Below are positions 503 to 19,662 of a stretch of DNA of 37,221 nt, piece by piece. The notes beneath the pieces are model-generated. The model worked only from the letters and a program-made list of their open reading frames with translations, made no database searches and was not told where the DNA came from. The position numbers were made by a program, and so were the translations under genes. The DNA comes from a virus, in IMG/VR virus record IMGVR_UViG_2162886007_000037, positions 1 to 37,221 of that record. One strand, written 5' to 3'. Position 1 is the first letter of the stretch, and the number at the start of each line of letters is the position of its first letter.

Positions 503-766
503 TCACCCCTCCTTACTTTCCGCTTTGCTAAACTTCACCTCTACGACCTCTTCACCCATTGTGGCTTTTACCGTCACATCTTTTTTGCCGTCATCTTCCC
601 AAGTAAAAGATTTAACTTCATTGCCTGTAGGTTCTAAGCCAAAATTATCTAATGTTTGACGTATAGCAAATAAATGTTCACTAAGTTCTGCTAAACAATC
701 TTTGATTCGGTCGGAAGGGATTTTAAGAAAGTCGCCTAGTGACTCTATTCTGTATTTTTCACTCAT
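503..766 (-). CDS. Hypothetical protein, left early operon
   Basis: This 87-residue acidic protein is not a family I recognise. It has no membrane segment. Its N-terminal half is helical (about residues 1-42), and a beta-like C-terminal segment is rich in Val, Lys and Glu. Its ATG overlaps the TGA of the preceding gene (ATGA at 766-763), so the two are translationally coupled. Lying between the recombination genes and the putative excisionase, it may be an accessory to recombination or anti-host functions, but nothing in the sequence proves this. Confidence 0.6.
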   Translation of the reverse strand: MSEKYRIESLGDFLKIPSDRIKDCLAELSEHLFAIRQTLDNFGLEPTGNEVKSFTWEDDGKKDVTVKATMGEEVVEVKFSKAESKEG

Positions 767-1170
767 CCCTCAGCTCCCGATTCACTTTCTACTATCATTG
801 CCTTATCTATTGCTTCACGTTTTGTTTGATGAACTGTCTCTGTTAAACGTTCCCATCCACTAATCCAATAAACATCATTTACACAAAATCCTTCACCAGT
901 TTTGTCATAGTTTTCATCATAATTAACATCAGTTGTGACCAATCTTGGTTCTTGTAGCATGAAATCTAAGCGCGCTGTATCTTTTGCTTGATCCTCGGTA
1001 ACGAGTACACCCTCTGGCACCGCCTGAGTATTAGCTTTTATCTGCCATAATTCCCAACCTAGCTGAGACTTAGAATTTGTATATTCACCATCTTCAAGTT
1101 CGAGTTCACGTTGCTTACCGCCAACACTTAAATAAGCTTCTTCAAAAGCCTCTCTTTCATTCAATGTCAT
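763..1170 (-). CDS. Hypothetical phage protein downstream of the exonuclease
   Basis: This 135-residue protein starts at ATG 1170 with ribosome site GGGAGC and overlaps the exonuclease stop by four bases. The N-terminal region (FEEAYLSVGGKQRELELEDGEY, then LGWELWQ, about residues 8-45) resembles a short module seen in many phage proteins of unknown role, with an aromatic WELWQ motif. The remainder is acidic, with a WISGWERL segment near residue 103. No catalytic motif is visible. Operon position suggests an early function linked to recombination. Confidence 0.6.
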   Translation of the reverse strand: MTLNEREAFEEAYLSVGGKQRELELEDGEYTNSKSQLGWELWQIKANTQAVPEGVLVTEDQAKDTARLDFMLQEPRLVTTDVNYDENYDKTGEGFCVNDVYWISGWERLTETVHQTKREAIDKAMIVESESGAEG

Positions 1171-1775
1171 GCTGCTGCTCCCAATTCTTTTAATGCCTCA
1201 TCAATGCTTTTGTTGAATTGGCGAACATCGTTTTCAATTGCTTCAATGCCTAAATCCTTAGCAAACACACGTATAATGATTAGCTGCAAAGCTTCTGGCA
1301 GACGTGGGTCATAACTAATAAAGTCACACCATTCACGACGAGTACAAGATAATTGACTTGTGATCTGTGGAATATATTCGTCTGGCACTTGCTTGGTTAA
1401 AAGCGTATTTAAATGCGTTGTAGTGTCAGGGCATTTAGCTTCGATCTGACCATCTGTACCCACAAGTCCATCTGGAGAAGACCCAAACATTTCAATAAAA
1501 GGGTGGTCAATTAAACCCGTGCCAACTACAAAGTTGCCTGTTTCATTTTCATAAGCAGCGATTGCATAAGGTTCGTTGTCGATACCCCATTGCATTGCAG
1601 CATTAGTGAAGAATTCCTTCTGAACGCCAGTTAGGCGCTCAGCTAGAATTGTTAAACCTAATGCATTTAAAGCTTTTCCTTTGGCAGGCTTAGCATTTAA
1701 ATCTTTGATGCGACTAGCAGTTACTTTGCCGCATCGTTCTGAATGCCAATCATCACTACGCTGGAGAATGTTCAT
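1167..1775 (-). CDS. YqaJ/lambda-type 5'-3' exonuclease
   Basis: The 202-residue product has the lambda-exonuclease/YqaJ pattern: RSDDWHSERCGKVTASRI at the N-terminus, GSSPDG with Asp102, then IEAK with Glu112 and Lys114 (the PD-(D/E)XK catalytic set), and QITSQL about 30 residues later. Such enzymes resect double-stranded ends to give a 3' overhang for the partner annealing protein encoded just upstream. ATG 1775 is chosen because AGGAG lies 6 bases before it; an upstream in-frame start at 1820 has no such site. The gene overlaps the end of the annealing-protein gene by 20 bases, which fits a two-gene recombination pair. Confidence 0.9.
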   Translation of the reverse strand: MNILQRSDDWHSERCGKVTASRIKDLNAKPAKGKALNALGLTILAERLTGVQKEFFTNAAMQWGIDNEPYAIAAYENETGNFVVGTGLIDHPFIEMFGSSPDGLVGTDGQIEAKCPDTTTHLNTLLTKQVPDEYIPQITSQLSCTRREWCDFISYDPRLPEALQLIIIRVFAKDLGIEAIENDVRQFNKSIDEALKELGAAA

Positions 1776-2637
1776 AAGTTTCTCCTTGGCGTTGTAGGGC
1801 TTGGTCAGCAAACTGCGCAATTTCTTTTAAGCTAATTGAGTGAGTAGACCAGAAGTGAGCAGACCAAGTATTTTTTGGTAAGGTTGCATGAGCTTCTGCT
1901 AAACGCTTTGTTCCGTACTGTGCTTCTTGTTTGAAAAAAGGTAAGTGCTCATCTTCAAAGGCTTGGTAACCTTCTGGAATGCTGTCTGATGGTGATGAGA
2001 AATTTTCAGGTACAGCTTCAGTTCCAGTTACATCGAGGGTCTTACCATGCATTTCTTCAGCTGTGTATTCGTTGCCAAGTTCTTCAGAAAATGCTTTCCT
2101 TAGGGCACCTGCTTCAGCACATTTAGATAGTTGCCCACGCTTACGCTTTGTCCACATTGCATTTAATGAACCATCTTTGGTAGTTGCACAAGCCTCTTCA
2201 AAATATTCTGTGTGCGACCATTTGGTCAAAACGCCATTCACAATCTTATGAACAACTACTGTGCAATATTCTGGAACTGTGTGAGTTTTATTCCCAAATT
2301 GCATTTGTACCATTGGGCCGAAAATTGGCTCATCTTGTCCAGCATATTGTCCAGTGCGGTGAGCAGTAATCCGATGTTCGGTAATTGATGGCATGATTGT
2401 GTCACGCCATTCAGTGTTTCCTGTTTGAGCATTTTTCACTGACATTGGTACAATATGGCAAGGCTTCTTCATAATGTCTAAGCTACGTGCTTTTGCATAC
2501 TCAACTGCCATGATTATTGATTCAGGCTTTGCACCAGGAAAGATAGAAGAAGTAAGGGCAGACCACATAGCCTCATCAATGTTGTAATCTTTAATACTCA
2601 AACCTAATTGGCTTTCAACTTTAGCTATAGCATTCAT
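1756..2637 (-). CDS. RecT/Redbeta-family single-strand annealing protein
   Basis: This 293-residue protein resembles phage Bet/RecT proteins. An N-terminal region lists residues typical of the family (AVEYAKARSLDIMKKPCHIVPM, about 45-66), and there is a conserved basic helix, WTKRKRGQLSKCAEAGALRKAF, near residues 160-180. The protein anneals complementary single strands produced by the exonuclease encoded directly downstream, driving recombination or concatemer formation. GAGGT lies 8 bases before ATG 2637. The C-terminal 90 residues (after about 200) are variable and acidic, as is usual for the interaction tail. Confidence 0.87.
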   Translation of the reverse strand: MNAIAKVESQLGLSIKDYNIDEAMWSALTSSIFPGAKPESIIMAVEYAKARSLDIMKKPCHIVPMSVKNAQTGNTEWRDTIMPSITEHRITAHRTGQYAGQDEPIFGPMVQMQFGNKTHTVPEYCTVVVHKIVNGVLTKWSHTEYFEEACATTKDGSLNAMWTKRKRGQLSKCAEAGALRKAFSEELGNEYTAEEMHGKTLDVTGTEAVPENFSSPSDSIPEGYQAFEDEHLPFFKQEAQYGTKRLAEAHATLPKNTWSAHFWSTHSISLKEIAQFADQALQRQGETYEHSPA

Positions 2638-2649
2638 CTTGTAGACCTC

Positions 2650-3702
2650 TTAGTATTTGATAGAAATGTTTGGCACTTCATTCTTCGCAATTAAACGAAT
2701 CAATTCTTTTGCCATTTCTTCTGTTAAGCCCGGAACGCCATACATCATTGCTGACAAGGCTTCATTGTTAATTTTTTTCATGTGATTGCGGTTAGCTAAA
2801 CGAGCTTCCTCCGCGTTACGATCTGCCTCTAGCTTTGCAGCTTGTTCAGCCTCAATACGCTTACGCTCAACTTCAGCGGCATGTTGTGCACGCAACTCAG
2901 CAGCTTCTTTTTCAGCAACAAGACGAGCTTCACGTTCAGCAGCGTCACGTTTTTCACGCTCAGCTTTAGCAATAGCTTCTTGCTTTTCTCGTTCTACGCG
3001 ATCTGCTTCCGCCTTGGCTTTTTGCTCAGCTTCGATGCGGGCTTTCTCAGCCGCTTCACGTGCTATACGTTCTTCGTGCTCACGCTGTAATCGCTTTTGC
3101 TCAGCTTTACGTAGACGTTCCAATTCGGCTTGTTCCGCTTCATACTTTTCACGACTGGCTAAGCGACCACGTAGCGCCTCAATAGCTTCAAACTTTGCAA
3201 CTTTTGCTTCTTGTTCGTACTCTTCAAAAGTTCCATCAATTACAAGCTGTTCAACCCAAGAGAGAGAGACCTTGATTCTTTCTACTGTTTCTTCTACAAA
3301 TGGATGTGCAGCAGTTCGAATGCTTTGAATAGCTTCAATGTGTTGAGCAACACGATCTTTCTCAGCCTGTTCCCATGCATCACGTGGTGCCAAGATTTCA
3401 TCACGCAATAAATCAAACTTCTTAACGATTGCGATTCGATCATCATCAATTACTTTGATTTGAGCCTTTTGTTCAGCTACTAACTCTTTGCCGCATTTCT
3501 CAACCAAAGTCTTTGATTTACTAATTTTCAAAGCTAGTGAGCCAATAGCATCACGACCTTTCTTTGTGCTTACATCTGGAACATGAGAACGAACCTCTTG
3601 AGCAATACGCTCGAACAATTCATCTGTACCACCACGTTTACCAAAAGCAGCAACAATCACATTTTGTTCTAATACTTGTACTTCGTTAATTTGAGCATTC
3701 AT
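2650..3702 (-). CDS. Long coiled-coil protein (DUF1351-like) of the recombination cluster
   Basis: This 350-residue protein has an N-terminal domain (about 1-115, including GRDAIGSLALKISKSKTLVEKCGKEL) like that of phage DUF1351-type proteins found beside recT. A very Ala/Glu/Arg/Lys-rich helix follows (about 185-310), with many EAE and KAEAD repeats forming a continuous coiled coil. The compact C-terminal end is GVPGLTEEMAKELIRLIA. The composition of the coil is TolA-like. Its place directly upstream of the annealing protein, 12 bases apart, suggests a recombination or DNA-scaffolding role. AGGA precedes ATG 3702. Confidence 0.7.
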   Translation of the reverse strand: MNAQINEVQVLEQNVIVAAFGKRGGTDELFERIAQEVRSHVPDVSTKKGRDAIGSLALKISKSKTLVEKCGKELVAEQKAQIKVIDDDRIAIVKKFDLLRDEILAPRDAWEQAEKDRVAQHIEAIQSIRTAAHPFVEETVERIKVSLSWVEQLVIDGTFEEYEQEAKVAKFEAIEALRGRLASREKYEAEQAELERLRKAEQKRLQREHEERIAREAAEKARIEAEQKAKAEADRVEREKQEAIAKAEREKRDAAEREARLVAEKEAAELRAQHAAEVERKRIEAEQAAKLEADRNAEEARLANRNHMKKINNEALSAMMYGVPGLTEEMAKELIRLIAKNEVPNISIKY

Positions 3703-3711
3703 AATCTTTTC

Positions 3712-3960
3712 CTAATTCTTTTCTACAGGGCGTTTACGTAAAGAAGTCTTCCAATCACCTTGGTATCCAAAAGTTGGTGCAGCATCGATGAGTCTGCCAA
3801 AATCCCAATATCTTCCACACTCATGCAGCTCAGGTTCATTTTCCCACCAGTCTGCACGATCAATTTCTTCATCATGTGTCCAGAAATTGGCATTCTCAGG
3901 TGCTTCTGACCAATCAGGCTCAAAGTGATCATCTGTTAAATATTTAGAAAAAACTTCCAT
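3712..3960 (-). CDS. Small acidic hypothetical protein
   Basis: This is an 82-residue, strongly acidic and Trp-rich protein (for example FWTHDEEIDRADWWENEPEL). I do not recognise the family. The ATG at 3960-3958 shares one base with the upstream TGA (TGATG) and sits 6 bases after GAGAGG, so it is preferred over a GTG three bases earlier. Small acidic early phage proteins are often DNA mimics that block host nucleases or regulators; that is only a guess here. Confidence 0.6.
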   Translation of the reverse strand: MEVFSKYLTDDHFEPDWSEAPENANFWTHDEEIDRADWWENEPELHECGRYWDFGRLIDAAPTFGYQGDWKTSLRKRPVEKN

Positions 3961-4343
3961 CACCCACCTCTCAACTCTTCATCTGCCAACTCTTCGGCGT
4001 AGTATTTAAGCTGCTCGTTTAAGCTGTTTACTTGTGTTGTTGTTAGTTGGAATAGAAGACCTATTGGAGCTTCCACATATTCAGCACCCACCACTTCAAC
4101 ATGAGTGCGGTCATCTACAACGAGTTGGTCATAAAACTGATCTTTGCTGTCTTCTGGATGAAGGATTGAGCCTACAACTCGTACTTCTCTAACAACATCT
4201 GCAACAATCTTGCATTTCAATGTTGCGCAACCACTTTCCAATTCAAATGAAACAGTGTTGTCTTTAACCTCAAATTCACCAGACACTTGAAGCATTGGGA
4301 AAGAAGGGCACAACAGCTCAGGTTTGGTAACGAACATATTCAT
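3960..4343 (-). CDS. Hypothetical protein, left early operon
   Basis: This 127-residue protein is of unknown function. A predicted beta-rich N-terminal half (VSGEFEVKDNTVSFELESG) is followed by a helical C-terminus (LNEQLKYYAEELADEEL). Its start overlaps the upstream stop (ATGA at 4343-4340) and it ends in TGATG with the next gene, so it is part of a coupled chain. No membrane or catalytic motif is visible. Confidence 0.6.
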   Translation of the reverse strand: MNMFVTKPELLCPSFPMLQVSGEFEVKDNTVSFELESGCATLKCKIVADVVREVRVVGSILHPEDSKDQFYDQLVVDDRTHVEVVGAEYVEAPIGLLFQLTTTQVNSLNEQLKYYAEELADEELRGG

Positions 4344-5005
4344 GAGTTGTTACCTCTCAGCTTGTCAGCAAATGCATTGCGTTCTTCACGTGAACTGAAC
4401 TCATAAGTGACAGAGTAGTTCTGGTTATGAAGCGTTGTATTGCTCGGCTTTGGCAGTTCAGCGTTTACTGTTAGGGTGGTTGGTTTGAGGCGAAAATCAA
4501 ATCCATCATTTAAGATGTCACAAGCTGGTAAATGTTTTGCATCTTGCCACTCATATGAACCATCTATTAGTTCACAGTAAGCTTCAACTTCAACTCGTTT
4601 GCCAATGAGATCGTACGCCTCAGCCCCGATAATCAAGCCTTGGTCTTGGGTTTGGGTAATAGGTTGTATATCAAGATCAGAACTAAATTCCGATTGTCTC
4701 CAATGATTTCCAGACCACCAATGTCCTGTGCTTTTCTCAAAATCAACACAAGTCCATTTACTTCCATCTCGATCAATATGAGTGGCATCCCTCACATCAT
4801 TACGTTTCAACACAACAAGGTCATTTAGTTTTGCAATACTTATTAATTCATACTGTTCTGGATGCAAGACACCATTAAAAACATTCTTATCTTGAGCTTT
4901 TACATATAAGAAACTAGAAATTTCATTTAACCCAGTAGTGTCATAGCCAAGTTCATCTAACAGACTTATAGCCTCGTCGGTGTTTGGAATTTTGTAGTTA
5001 TCCAT
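4340..5005 (-). CDS. Hypothetical protein, left early operon
   Basis: This 221-residue protein has no family I can name. The central region contains WTCVDFEKSTGHWWSGNHWRQSE (about 84-106), an aromatic cluster, and the C-terminal half has FDFRLKP, a short motif frequent in phage proteins of this size. AAGGAG lies 8 bases before ATG 5005, and the gene overlaps the upstream one by 8 bases. It could be a composite of two small phage domains. Confidence 0.6.
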   Translation of the reverse strand: MDNYKIPNTDEAISLLDELGYDTTGLNEISSFLYVKAQDKNVFNGVLHPEQYELISIAKLNDLVVLKRNDVRDATHIDRDGSKWTCVDFEKSTGHWWSGNHWRQSEFSSDLDIQPITQTQDQGLIIGAEAYDLIGKRVEVEAYCELIDGSYEWQDAKHLPACDILNDGFDFRLKPTTLTVNAELPKPSNTTLHNQNYSVTYEFSSREERNAFADKLRGNNS

Positions 5006-5189
5006 GAGAGGGCTCCTTGTCTTGTTCTAACTTCTTAAGAGCTAAATCCCATGCAGCCTTTTCAGTTTTAGCTGAGTTAGCAAAGAAGTATTGACCTTCA
5101 AAGATTTGGTAAAACTGGAACATTCCACCGCCAATTGATTTGCAATAAAGGTTAGGGTTTGCTCGTCGGCATAAAGCTTTAGAATTCAT
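4998..5189 (-). CDS. Small hypothetical protein
   Basis: This 63-residue protein starts with MNSKALCRRANPNLYCKS and ends in a helix (TEKAAWDLALKKLEQDKE). It contains a YYF-like aromatic core (MFQFYQIFEGQYFF). ATG 5189 follows GAGGGGG and overlaps the upstream TAA (TAATG). It is a typical early phage small protein and I cannot assign a function. Confidence 0.55.
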   Translation of the reverse strand: MNSKALCRRANPNLYCKSIGGGMFQFYQIFEGQYFFANSAKTEKAAWDLALKKLEQDKEPSHG

Positions 5190-5395
5190 TAGTTAGCCCC
5201 CTCAACCTGAACGCGGACATAAAGGTTTTCTTTTGCTTTGAGTTCGTTGACGTGTTGCTCGTCGGCACAGCCACGTAAGAAGCCAAATACAATGAAAGTG
5301 ATAACCCAGAAAGCTATGAAAGCTTTTGAGCCATCCTTAAAGGCTTGGCTAAGCTTGTACTTTTCAATTCTTTGTTCCATAATCTTCTCACTCAT
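5189..5395 (-). CDS. Small single-pass membrane protein, first gene of the left operon
   Basis: This 68-residue protein has one clear transmembrane segment (about 24-41, KAFIAFWVITFIVFGFL) after a basic N-terminus. It is the first gene after PL, where lambda has N, but it has no arginine-rich RNA-binding motif. Two starts are possible: ATG 5395, whose ribosome site lies in a leader hairpin, or ATG 5380, with GAGAAG just upstream and outside the hairpin. Being expressed first from PL, it might act at the membrane early after infection, for example in exclusion; this is inference. Confidence 0.6.
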   Translation of the reverse strand: MSEKIMEQRIEKYKLSQAFKDGSKAFIAFWVITFIVFGFLRGCADEQHVNELKAKENLYVRVQVEGAN

Positions 5396-5400
5396 TGAGT

Positions 5401-5436
5401 AAAAGTCCCTCTCCGTCGAAAGCTAGGGGCTTTTTT
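5401..5436. terminator. Hairpin in the PL leader (terminator-like in both directions)
   Basis: AAAAGTCCCT (5401-5410) pairs with AGGGGCTTTT (5425-5434) around a 14-base loop, giving a 10-bp stem with one G-U pair. On the plus strand it ends in six T, a good terminator against rightward transcription into the control region. On the minus strand the tail is only ACTTTTAC, so it could be a weak attenuator in the leader of the left operon. Confidence 0.6.
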
Positions 5437-5452
5437 GTTATCTGGTGAGATA

Positions 5453-5481
5453 AATATAGAATATTCTATAAAAGTAATCAA
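5453..5481 (-). promoter_or_regulatory. PL, promoter of the left early operon
   Basis: On the minus strand TTGATT (5481-5476) and TATATT (5458-5453) are 17 bp apart, a close match to the sigma-70 consensus. One operator palindrome overlaps the -10 and the spacer and another starts at the -35, as expected for a repressor-controlled early promoter. Transcription would start near 5446 and read into the genes at 5395-232. Confidence 0.75.
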
Positions 5482-5514
5482 TAGAAATTTCTATATATTG
5501 TCTATAATTTCTAT
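5456..5514. promoter_or_regulatory. OL: left operator cluster for the CI-type repressor
   Basis: ATAGAATATTCTAT (5456-5469, extendable to a perfect 16-bp palindrome 5455-5470) and ATAGAAATTTCTAT (5481-5494) are perfect palindromes and recur identically on the other side of the repressor gene. A third site (5501-5514) keeps only a perfect right half (AATTTCTAT). The first two overlap PL, so bound repressor would shut the left operon. Confidence 0.8.
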
Positions 5515-6370: not shown

Positions 6371-6437
6371 ATTTTAACAGGAACAATAAAATAGAAATTT
6401 CTATTGCTTTTTGTTGACTAAATATAGAATATTCTAT
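6349..6437. promoter_or_regulatory. OR: right operator cluster (three sites)
   Basis: ATAGAATATTCTAT (6424-6437) lies in the PR promoter. ATAGAAATTTCTAT (6391-6404) lies between the promoters. ATAAACATTTCTAT (6349-6362, 12 of 14 matching) lies in PRM. The first two are identical to the left operators. Centre distances are 33 and 42 bp. The arrangement parallels lambda OR1-OR3, with the weakest match at the repressor's own promoter. Confidence 0.8.
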
Positions 6438-8386: not shown

Positions 8387-9126
8387 ACGCAATGCTTAAT
8401 CCGGAAGTTCTGCAAGGCTCAGGCTTTTGCACTAAGCACAACACAAAAGAAATCATTATGGGTGGTTTTCAAGGGTGTCCACAGTGTGCAATCGAATATG
8501 TGAATGCGGCTAACAAGCAACATGATTTCGAAGTTCAAAAATCTGTACGTGAAAAACATTTTGCTGGCGCAATGATTCCTGATCGTTTCAAAAATGCAGG
8601 ATTTAAAAATTATCGTCGTGATCATGATGGGCAAATTGAGGCTTACAACCAAACAACTGCCTATGCACGTGAAATCCTCAAATGTGAAGTTAAAAACCTC
8701 GTCATGGTCGGCAGTACTGGTACAGGTAAAACACATTTGGCATGTGCAACTGCAAGAACGCTTTTAGCGAAAGGCAATTATGCACGTTACATCACAAGCG
8801 AAGAATTGGCTCAACGCATCATGAAAGCGTGGGACAAGGACACGAAAGATCAATCAGAGCAATCAGTAATTTATGAGTTCACTCAATACGATTTATTAAT
8901 TCTTGATGAGTATGGATTGCATGACCGTGAAAAGCGCTTAGAGCTTGTGCATAAGGTTCTTTACTCACGTTATGACGATGCCAAGGCAACAATGCTTATT
9001 TCAAACATGACGCTTGAGCAGCTAAAGGCTGATCTAGGGGATCGTCTATGGTCTCGTTTCCAACATGGCGGCTTAACAGTGGTTGAGTGCAATTGGAATG
9101 ATGGTCGAGTGGGAGGTGCAGCATGA
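8383..9126 (+). CDS. DnaC-like helicase loader ATPase
   Basis: This 247-residue AAA+ protein has an N-terminal cysteine cluster (FCTKHN ... GCPQC, 15-35). Its Walker A is GSTGTGKTH (110-118) and its Walker B is LLILDEYG (171-178), in the order seen in DnaC/IstB-type loaders. It is expected to load the host replicative helicase at the origin through the initiator encoded just upstream. The genes overlap by 4 bases (ATGA) and GGAGG precedes ATG 8383. Confidence 0.9.
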   Translation: MNAMLNPEVLQGSGFCTKHNTKEIIMGGFQGCPQCAIEYVNAANKQHDFEVQKSVREKHFAGAMIPDRFKNAGFKNYRRDHDGQIEAYNQTTAYAREILKCEVKNLVMVGSTGTGKTHLACATARTLLAKGNYARYITSEELAQRIMKAWDKDTKDQSEQSVIYEFTQYDLLILDEYGLHDREKRLELVHKVLYSRYDDAKATMLISNMTLEQLKADLGDRLWSRFQHGGLTVVECNWNDGRVGGAA

Positions 9127-10232
9127 AATACGGATCAGTATGTTCTGGTATAGAAGCGGCCACTGTTGCTTGGCATGAACTTGGTTTAACACCTGCGTGG
9201 TTTTCAGAGATAGAGAAGTTCCCAAGCCAATTGTTAGAGCATCACTATTCAGAAACTCCAAACTTAGGTGATATGACGCTCATTCGTGACCAGGTTAAGT
9301 CAGGGGAAGTTCAGGCGCCCGATATTTTAGTGGGTGGTACACCTTGCCAAGCATTTTCTATTGCTGGGTTAAAAAATTCATTAGAAGACGATCGAGGTCA
9401 GTTAACACTTGAGTTTGTGAGATTAGCGGATGAAATTGATTCAGCAAGAACTGTTTGCGGACTTAAGCCAGCCATCATTGTTTGGGAAAATGTACCAGGA
9501 GTGCTTAACACCAAAGACAATGCTTTCGGCTGTTTTCTGGGAGCACTGTCAGGTTCGGGGTGTGAACTACAACCGGCAGGGAAAAAGTGGACAAACGCTG
9601 GTTGTGTGTTTGGACCATCTAGACAAGTCGCTTGGAGAGTCCTTGATGCTCAATATTTCGGAGTTGCCCAACGACGCAAAAGAGTCTTTGTTGTCGCAAG
9701 TGCTAGAGCAGGAAGTGTTGCCAAAGTACTTTTTGAGCAAGCAGGCTTGCCTGGGAATCCTATTGAGATCAGAGAAAAGAAAAAAGCTAATTCCGAAGGT
9801 GTTGCGAAGGGCCTTACAAGACGTGGCGCAGGTGGACAAAACCTAGATGCTGAAACAGCCACGTTTGTAATTCATGGAGCACAAGATCCACTTGTGAATG
9901 AAGATACGGCTCACTGCCTAGGAAGGAAACGAGGACAAGAAAATGCAGTTTTTACAATAAACAAAACCGCTGCGACTCTTACTCGAGGATTTGGTGATCG
10001 AGGAATTGATTCGGATCAAATCACAAATGGGAACTGTGCAATTCATTTTAAAGGAGTGAGAAGACTTACACCTTTAGAGTGCGAACGTCTTCAAGGGTTC
10101 CCAGACAACTATACAAACATTCCAAATGCTAAGGATAGTCCGCGTTACGCAGCGCTAGGCAATTCTATGGCTGTGCCAGTGATGAGATGGATTGGGGAGC
10201 GTTTGCTTGAGACTTTTGGAGAGATTGCATGA
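9123..10232 (+). CDS. DNA (cytosine-5) methyltransferase
   Basis: This 369-residue protein has the ordered C5-methyltransferase motifs: SVCSGIEAA (5-13, SAM binding), GGTPCQAFS with catalytic Cys75, ENVPG (122-126), and QRRKRVFVVA (183-192). A target-recognition region follows (about 195-310), then LTPLECERLQGFP and ALGNSMAVP near the end. It transfers a methyl group to C5 of cytosine at an unknown site. No restriction enzyme lies beside it, so it is probably an orphan enzyme protecting phage DNA from host restriction. It overlaps the loader and the next gene by 4 bases each. Confidence 0.93.
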   Translation: MKYGSVCSGIEAATVAWHELGLTPAWFSEIEKFPSQLLEHHYSETPNLGDMTLIRDQVKSGEVQAPDILVGGTPCQAFSIAGLKNSLEDDRGQLTLEFVRLADEIDSARTVCGLKPAIIVWENVPGVLNTKDNAFGCFLGALSGSGCELQPAGKKWTNAGCVFGPSRQVAWRVLDAQYFGVAQRRKRVFVVASARAGSVAKVLFEQAGLPGNPIEIREKKKANSEGVAKGLTRRGAGGQNLDAETATFVIHGAQDPLVNEDTAHCLGRKRGQENAVFTINKTAATLTRGFGDRGIDSDQITNGNCAIHFKGVRRLTPLECERLQGFPDNYTNIPNAKDSPRYAALGNSMAVPVMRWIGERLLETFGEIA

Positions 10233-19206: not shown

Positions 19207-19662
19207 ATGAAAGTTCGTGTGGCTACCCTTGATGATATTCCTACATTAGTCGAGTTTGGCAAATCATTTATGAGTGAGGCGCCAAACTATCGTGACCGTG
19301 AATACATTCCAGAAAAAGCAGAAGAACACTACAAAGAACTCCTTAAAAATGGCGTGATTTTCGTTGTTGAGCATAACGGACATGTTTGTGGTGGCTTTGC
19401 TGGTGGAATTGGTAAGGAATGGTTTAACGACCAAAGAATTGCTTTTGACTACGTAATGTATGTCATTCCTGAGTTTCGTAAGACAAAGATTGCTTACATG
19501 CTCGTTGATGCCTTCATCAACTGGTGCAAGCTCATGAAAGCTGACCGCATTCAATGCGGCACTACAACAGGTATTGAATCTCTAGGGTGTATTCGTCTTT
19601 ATAGGCATTTTGGCTTTCGCGAATACGGCACTGTACTTGATATGGGGCTAAACCATGAGTGA
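19207..19662 (+). CDS. GNAT-family N-acetyltransferase
   Basis: The 151-residue protein has a GNAT fold: RVATLDDIPTLVEFG at the start, beta strands 2-4 (VIFVVEHNGHVCGGFAGG, FDYVMYVIPEFR), the acetyl-CoA helix RKTKIAYMLVDAFINWC (about 97-113), and LYRHFGFREYG near the end. The usual (R/Q)xxGxG/A loop is degenerate. Its substrate is unknown. Such a gene in a podophage tail operon, followed by a cupin-like gene, recurs in related phages; it may modify a virion or host protein. Confidence 0.85.
   Translation: MKVRVATLDDIPTLVEFGKSFMSEAPNYRDREYIPEKAEEHYKELLKNGVIFVVEHNGHVCGGFAGGIGKEWFNDQRIAFDYVMYVIPEFRKTKIAYMLVDAFINWCKLMKADRIQCGTTTGIESLGCIRLYRHFGFREYGTVLDMGLNHE

Follow-up and report, generated by a model that had tools for sequence, protein, structure and literature searches.

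A probable cassette operon with short linkers at its gene joints in the early left region of an Acinetobacter-type temperate phage

Genes and control signals of the early left region

The window, by which we mean the whole stretch of DNA analysed, is a 37,221-base virus record. It is best matched by Acinetobacter phages and by one that bears the label Alcaligenes phage Piluca. L001 (MZ326864.1), whose label gives Alcaligenes faecalis as host, shares about 80% identity with the Acinetobacter-like phage of the window across 31% of the 25 kb used as query. Models of phage tyrosine integrases matched the one window integrase that was scanned, and neither a tRNA nor an Rfam match was found in the window. 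The minus strand carries, in this order, cI (an S24 repressor), a PL-like promoter, five genes (g1 to g5), a coiled-coil protein (2650..3702, phrog_1376) that is the first gene of the recombination module, a RecT/Bet-type annealase (1756..2637) and a YqaJ-type exonuclease (1167..1820).

The PL-like promoter (TTGATT-17-TATATT, 5453..5481, minus strand) came from a consensus scan that as a whole returned 17 sites against 16.6 in shuffled sequences, so there was no excess. The palindrome TAGAAWWTTCTA, in contrast to its mean of 0.03 in shuffles, occurs at four positions in the window (5457, 5482, 6392 and 6425). The palindromes at 5457 and 5482 overlap or touch the promoter-like site, and therefore we take this site as PL; here lie two repressor-type operators, ATAGAATATTCTAT and ATAGAAATTTCTAT (5456..5494), with twins at 6391-6404 and 6424-6437. 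The palindromes at 6392 and 6425 are situated at the divergent promoter beside cI, and the arrangement of two per promoter would be consistent with a single repressor controlling both PL and the divergent promoter. A simple consensus scan of the minus strand within 3712-5395 gave no further promoter-like site.

Between PL and g1 lies a terminator-like leader hairpin (5401..5436, minus strand), and relatives have other stems in its place. No fewer than five different stems occupy this position (CCGCC/GGCGG, AGTCCC/GGGACT, AGCCCC/GGGACT, GCACGC/GCGTGC and GCACACC/GATGTGC; 82 leaders were taken, and 10 that did not fit the A-run/T-run pattern were left out). Since the structure is kept while the stem sequence is exchanged, we suggest that the hairpin has a function, perhaps attenuation. 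In two relatives, a large gene absent from the window is located between cI and g1 (Ab11510-phi, L002:5820-8087; Acba_3, L257:7684-9951). The Ab11510-phi gene encodes 755 aa with HSDR_N, N6-methylase and specificity-like parts, and is a candidate for a single-chain restriction-modification enzyme at the edge of PL. Elsewhere, the window encodes a C-5 cytosine DNA methylase (9123-10232) in the rightward early region, adjoining the replication genes, and a GNAT acetyltransferase (19207-19662) within the structural region, where Piluca has an N-acetyltransferase at a like place.

All five reading frames of the original prediction exist on the minus strand, and their proposed coupling is borne out by overlaps of 1, 8, 4 and 1 nt between successive frames. 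Gene g1 (5189..5395, phrog_11843, 1e-39) is read as 68 aa from its first start, g2 (4998..5189, phrog_30813, 5e-44) as 63 aa, g3 (4340..5005, phrog_7617, 6e-34) as 221 aa and g4 (3960..4343, phrog_12104, 1e-51) as 127 aa. Gene g5 (3712..3960), with 82 aa from its ATG or 83 aa from an upstream GTG, belongs to a family with the pattern DWS...W..SL..RP and weakly matches phrog_14495 (6e-9). Comparing relatives of at least 60% identity, we found dN below dS in every comparable pair of g1 (83 of 83, median ratio 0.28), g2 (3 of 3, ratio 0.24), g4 (21 of 21, ratio 0.10) and g5 (the single pair, ratio 0.16), while g3 had no relative that close. We conclude that g1 to g5 are real genes.

The true start of g1 is probably the ATG at 5380 (63 aa, MEQRIEK...), as relatives retain this methionine, often without the upstream one. 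The gene had been predicted to encode a membrane protein, in agreement with the one strong hydrophobic stretch present in 106 of 106 members of its main cluster, and we describe it as a single-pass membrane protein. Its C-terminal tail is kept, and the membrane segment is variable in some relatives.

The view that none of the five belongs to a known family also held: Pfam, NCBIfam and PADLOC gave nothing credible (for PADLOC, no match of the five at E<=1), and the PHROGs matches are all to families of unknown function. Homology to structural or housekeeping proteins was not found in these profile searches. An assignment of g1 to the superinfection immunity proteins (PF14373) was rejected, with Pfam giving only DUF3278 at E=0.095, below its cut-off. 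Some of 48 g3 relatives gave weak Pfam matches, Tail_spike_N and SPOR among them, each in 1-7 of the 48 and with a best E of 0.002; we regard these as chance.

Structure prediction covered g3 and g4. One g4 model reached a pLDDT of 79.6 and a pTM of 0.68, but the four further models of g4 scored 37-51; the g3 model had a pTM of 0.37. Foldseek returned no match below E 0.28 for the g4 model, for which the best VIA Z was 4.8, among unrelated folds, and none below E 0.54 for the g3 model. A PDB sequence search with the g3 and g4 profiles gave nothing at E below 0.2. Of the sensitive searches that had been suggested for these genes, the profiles thus led to PHROG families of unknown function, and the g3 and g4 predictions to no usable fold.

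Linkers, slots and traces of gene exchange

To compare the block with relatives, 165 loci were assembled, of which L006-L165 came from four protein queries of a viral collection and three are pieces of the window itself. Gene g1 was present in 150 of them, g4 in 143, g3 in 95, g2 in 7 and g5 in 4, the counts of g1 and g4 being inflated because these two were productive queries. As several loci share one contig, distinct intervals were counted instead of loci in what follows. Among 50,697 phage records, relatives of g1 were found in 27, of g3 in 87, of g4 in 9 and of g5 in 48, nearly all from Acinetobacter phages; g2 was found in none of these records. A g3 relative is present in Obolenskvirus AP22, a lytic phage, so the g3 family is not restricted to temperate phages. 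The g4 profile and a 28-mer linker had no match in bacterial contigs sampled at one genome per species, though named phages with these genes infect Acinetobacter baumannii.

Across the loci compared, g1 and g4 appear as the frame common to most fetched relatives, g2 and g5 as swappable cargo and g3 as a mosaic. The original prediction of a block of first genes after PL stands, while its picture of five unrelated unknowns gives way to frame, mosaic and cargo. We refer to the places of g2 and g5 as slots P2 and P5.

At every joint, we identified a short linker of its own, consisting of the ribosome-binding site and the start of the downstream gene and constant while the neighbouring genes vary. 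L1 (5378..5393; all linkers are on the minus strand) reads GAGTGAGAAGATT followed by ATG, and is likely the ribosome-binding site and true start of g1. L2 (5187..5209) encodes the tail VQVEGAN of the upstream gene together with the Shine-Dalgarno sequence and ATG of the next gene, and L5 (3957..3977) the tail ELRGG with the Shine-Dalgarno sequence and ATG of g5. L3 (4989..5018) consists of AAGGAGCCCTCTC and ATGGATAACTACAAAAT, with the tail KEPSHG; L4 (4335..4358) of GAGAGGTAACAACTC and ATGAATATG, with the tail LRGNNS; and L6 (3695..3723) of GAAAAGAATTAGGAAAAGATT and ATGAATGC, with the tail EKN and a next gene starting MNAP or MNAQ. The pattern recurs where the operon ends (window 763-1170; also L007 and L052), with SGAEG as the common tail of different genes ahead of the next start.

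The place of g2 between g1 and g4 is taken by one of many unrelated small genes, which fall into 26 clusters when their tails are masked. We kept 20 of these; the six dropped comprised a cluster whose tail differs, three short reads (17-18 aa), a read in the wrong frame and a methyltransferase truncated by the contig end. The 20 families terminate in about the same DNA, AAGGAGCCCTCTC followed by ATG, with the tail KEPSHG. Nearly all P2 genes end in this way because their last codons also supply g3 with its ribosome-binding site and start (AAGGAGCCCTCTC followed by ATGGATAACTA). Slot reading frames were tiled automatically, so that some short genes will be misread, and families were clustered by BLAST, so that some that we call unrelated may be distant relatives.

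Counting only loci fetched by protein query, in order to avoid circularity, we obtained 77 distinct g1-g4 intervals, 47 of them with a g3-type start. The exact 16-mer AAGGAGCCCTCTCATG was present in 33 of the 47 and absent from the other 14. With one sequence taken per slot class, identity of L3 across 17 classes (two of which are intervals without a called slot gene) was 0.82-1.00 at positions -13 to -1 and 0.29-0.59 at -40 to -14. The exact L3 lies upstream of the g3 family in 32 of 49 junctions, which derive from 21 upstream families. Scanning the viral collection with the 28-base L3 linker yielded 96 stretches.

L6 was found at 52 junctions, in 40 pairings of 21 upstream with 7 downstream families. 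The downstream genes belong to different families, all starting MNA. Clusters of genes in the downstream slot, obtained by rough tiling of reading frames, did not enter these family counts. Since neither side is homologous, the sharing of L6 is not explained by descent together with the downstream gene. Taking all 183 family pairs of the operon's joints together, junctions with the same downstream family but different upstream families agreed at 63% of positions from -21 to -1, the control stretch from -60 to -40 giving 27%. For L4, the evidence is weaker, with 43 junctions and only 2 upstream families.

Further, families found in several places carry the tail that goes with whichever gene comes next. 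Members of the MNNF/MDNF family end in KEPSHG before g3, in LRGNNS or LRGTNS before g4 and in QVEGVK before another slot gene, and those of the MERSF family in KEPSHG or QVEGVK. The DWS family, to which g5 belongs, ends in KEPSHG in P2 and in RPVEKN in P5. Tandem P2 genes joined by the QVEGVK linker occur at L129/L192.

We also searched for slots in which different families lie between the same flanks. Using flanks of 200 nt and 300 nt, and leaving out slots whose flanks were too short (63 of 75 retained), both abutting flanks were at least 90% identical in 11 of 1835 slot pairs of different families. Nine families are involved, among them that of g2 in the window, which occurs in the pair L020/L249. 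The best pair is L020/L130: on one side its flanks stay together as far as the start codon, and on the other they meet again at the linker. Unrelated genes between near-identical flanks are a direct trace of exchange.

The genes g3 and g4 are mosaic as well. Relatives of g3 have common seams (MDNYK, LISGAEA, RLKP and LRG.NS) with variable stretches between them, the window's g3 carrying MDNYK...ISGAEA...FRLKP...LRGNNS, and g4 relatives form allelic groups with both ends in common. Two homing-endonuclease-like genes, recognised by eye (L116:6448-7044 and L077:5338-5955), have MDNYKIK at their start, which looks like an insertion immediately after the start seam of g3. After its L3 linker, L131 has g3 replaced by a 25-aa membrane peptide with the same MDNY start codons, and the same was seen in L012 and L025.

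Proposed cassette operon and alternative readings

We consider it probable that the block forms the promoter-proximal end of a cassette operon whose genes are exchanged at the linkers, this operon belonging to the early left transcription unit of a temperate phage of Acinetobacter type. The operon would run from PL through the leader hairpin, g1 (frame), slot P2 with g2, g3 (mosaic), g4 (frame) and slot P5 with g5 to the recombination module. Each linker would unite the downstream gene's ribosome-binding site with that gene's first codons, and would overlap or adjoin the end of the gene upstream. Because the linkers carry these elements at the upstream gene's end, crossing over in two linkers and their flanks could place an incoming gene into a slot in the correct frame, with its translation coupled and its transcription under PL. 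This reading builds on the conserved linkers, their independence from the neighbouring genes, the swaps between near-identical flanks, the tail switching and the purifying selection; from these we infer that the linkers are used as recombination sites.

The likely agents would be the annealase and exonuclease encoded by the same operon. A minimal homology of around 30 bp for RecA and Red is given in the part of PMC2327257 available to us, and the accessible part of PMC3945230 describes Rad52-like recombinases as acting on short homology stretches. Together with the boundary sequences of lambdoid phages, an idea cited in the accessible part of PMC3029335, these statements make annealase-driven exchange at the linkers plausible. 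Against this reading, exact identity in L3 spans only about 25-30 bp, and longer flank similarity is needed to clearly exceed the Red minimum of about 30 bp; the 14 g3-type starts without the exact 16-mer and the missing matches in bacterial contigs also count against it.

What the cargo does is a separate matter. An anti-host or anti-defence function, as put forward in the original prediction, is suggested by position and turnover. In 24 P2-slot proteins, the window's g2 included, Pfam recognised an N6 DNA methyltransferase (L141, 1.2e-8) and one DUF7446 match, and PADLOC at E<=0.01 recognised the methyltransferase only; no other cargo family resembled a known host-interaction function. In AP22, a superinfection-immunity protein (ORF82, PF14373, 1.7e-14) is encoded two genes before the g3 relative. 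The methyltransferase, AP22 and the large genes of Ab11510-phi and Acba_3 would all be compatible with early host-interaction cargo, which may act on the host soon after infection begins. The accessible part of PMC12373910 reports tests in E. coli of accessory genes taken from variable phage regions, some of which have counter-defence functions. Our best guess for g2 and g5 is conditional counter-defence or host takeover, for which the chances seem roughly balanced for the cargo as a whole and lower for each single gene. More tentatively, g1 may serve membrane-level exclusion or takeover, and g3 and g4 may have general early functions.

The same observations could be taken to mean that the five genes make up an island devoted to anti-defence or anti-host functions, each of them inhibiting some host system. 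Such an island would account for the location directly after PL, the high turnover of g2 and g5, the methyltransferase among the P2 cargo and the immunity protein of AP22. However, with one PADLOC match among the 24 slot proteins and none among the window's five, and with g1 and g4 kept in most fetched relatives, as one would sooner expect of a general function than of an arms race, we regard this reading as possible but not favoured.

Alternatively, the linkers might be conserved only as good overlaps of ribosome-binding site and start, cargo turnover being illegitimate and the survivors being those that keep the downstream start. A Shine-Dalgarno-like stretch is indeed present in every linker, together with the start codon that follows, and as the linkers also serve translation, part of their conservation is owed to selection for ribosome binding. 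Yet in L3 neither the spacer CCCTCTC nor the codons behind the start vary more than the Shine-Dalgarno sequence, and conservation ends at the same base (-13) across slot classes, where random breakpoints would leave ragged remnants. Additionally, other joints of the same operon work with different Shine-Dalgarno sequences, and we consider this explanation unlikely to suffice. It is very improbable that g4 and g5 are accessories of the adjoining recombination module rather than host-interaction genes, in the manner of lambda, where gam adjoins bet and exo: their position directly upstream of the module fits, but 7 downstream families, mostly recombination-type first genes, follow the same linker after varied P5 genes, and g5-type genes also occur in P2, while a specific partner should travel with its module.

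The cassette operon with exchange at its linkers therefore remains our preferred reading. As a bolder and more speculative extension, which may well be wrong, the linkers could act as addresses, the operon's annealase and exonuclease dropping pre-wired in-frame early genes from co-infecting phages or resident prophages into defined slots during infection. If true, this would be a natural assembly standard for early host-interaction genes, and the tandem cassettes at L129/L192, connected by copies of one linker, would be its arrays. The linkers are sharp and specific to their position, and many relatives have them, which opens the boundary-sequence model to a direct test by crossing. The 28-base L3 may also serve as a search key, most of the 96 stretches naming a candidate early host-interaction gene.

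Comparison with known systems

In the literature, as far as its text was accessible, we found no description of such slots or linkers in Acinetobacter phages. The accessible part of PMC9122126 describes defence hotspots in P2-like phages and P4-like satellites. As in those hotspots, variable cargo lies here between conserved flanking genes; unlike them, as far as that part of the source describes them, the slots are inside an early lytic operon, hold single small genes and have almost no matches to defence models, with 1 of 24 P2-slot proteins giving a PADLOC match at E<=0.01.

In the mobile regulatory cassettes of T4-type phages, the module boundary is at the same time a regulatory element, containing an early promoter. 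Here, too, a regulatory element marks the module boundary, but it is translational and overlaps coding sequence, and the simple scan of 3712-5395 placed no promoter in it. Integron-type gene cassettes carry attC sites at their ends and come with an integron integrase; the integrase scanned here matched models of phage tyrosine integrases.

The closest parallel is provided by the lambdoid phages, in which short conserved sequences lie at the joints between exchanged non-homologous genes. Both have short conserved joints between non-homologous genes and a phage annealase nearby, and the replacement of genes between two near-identical flanks was also found here. In contrast to the lambdoid boundaries, the joints described here consist of ribosome-binding site and start codon, have a distinct sequence at each operon position, and are accompanied by C-terminal tails that change with the place of the gene. 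The linker-bounded cassettes are in our view a clear-cut variant, open to testing, of the modular phage operon with conserved boundary sequences.
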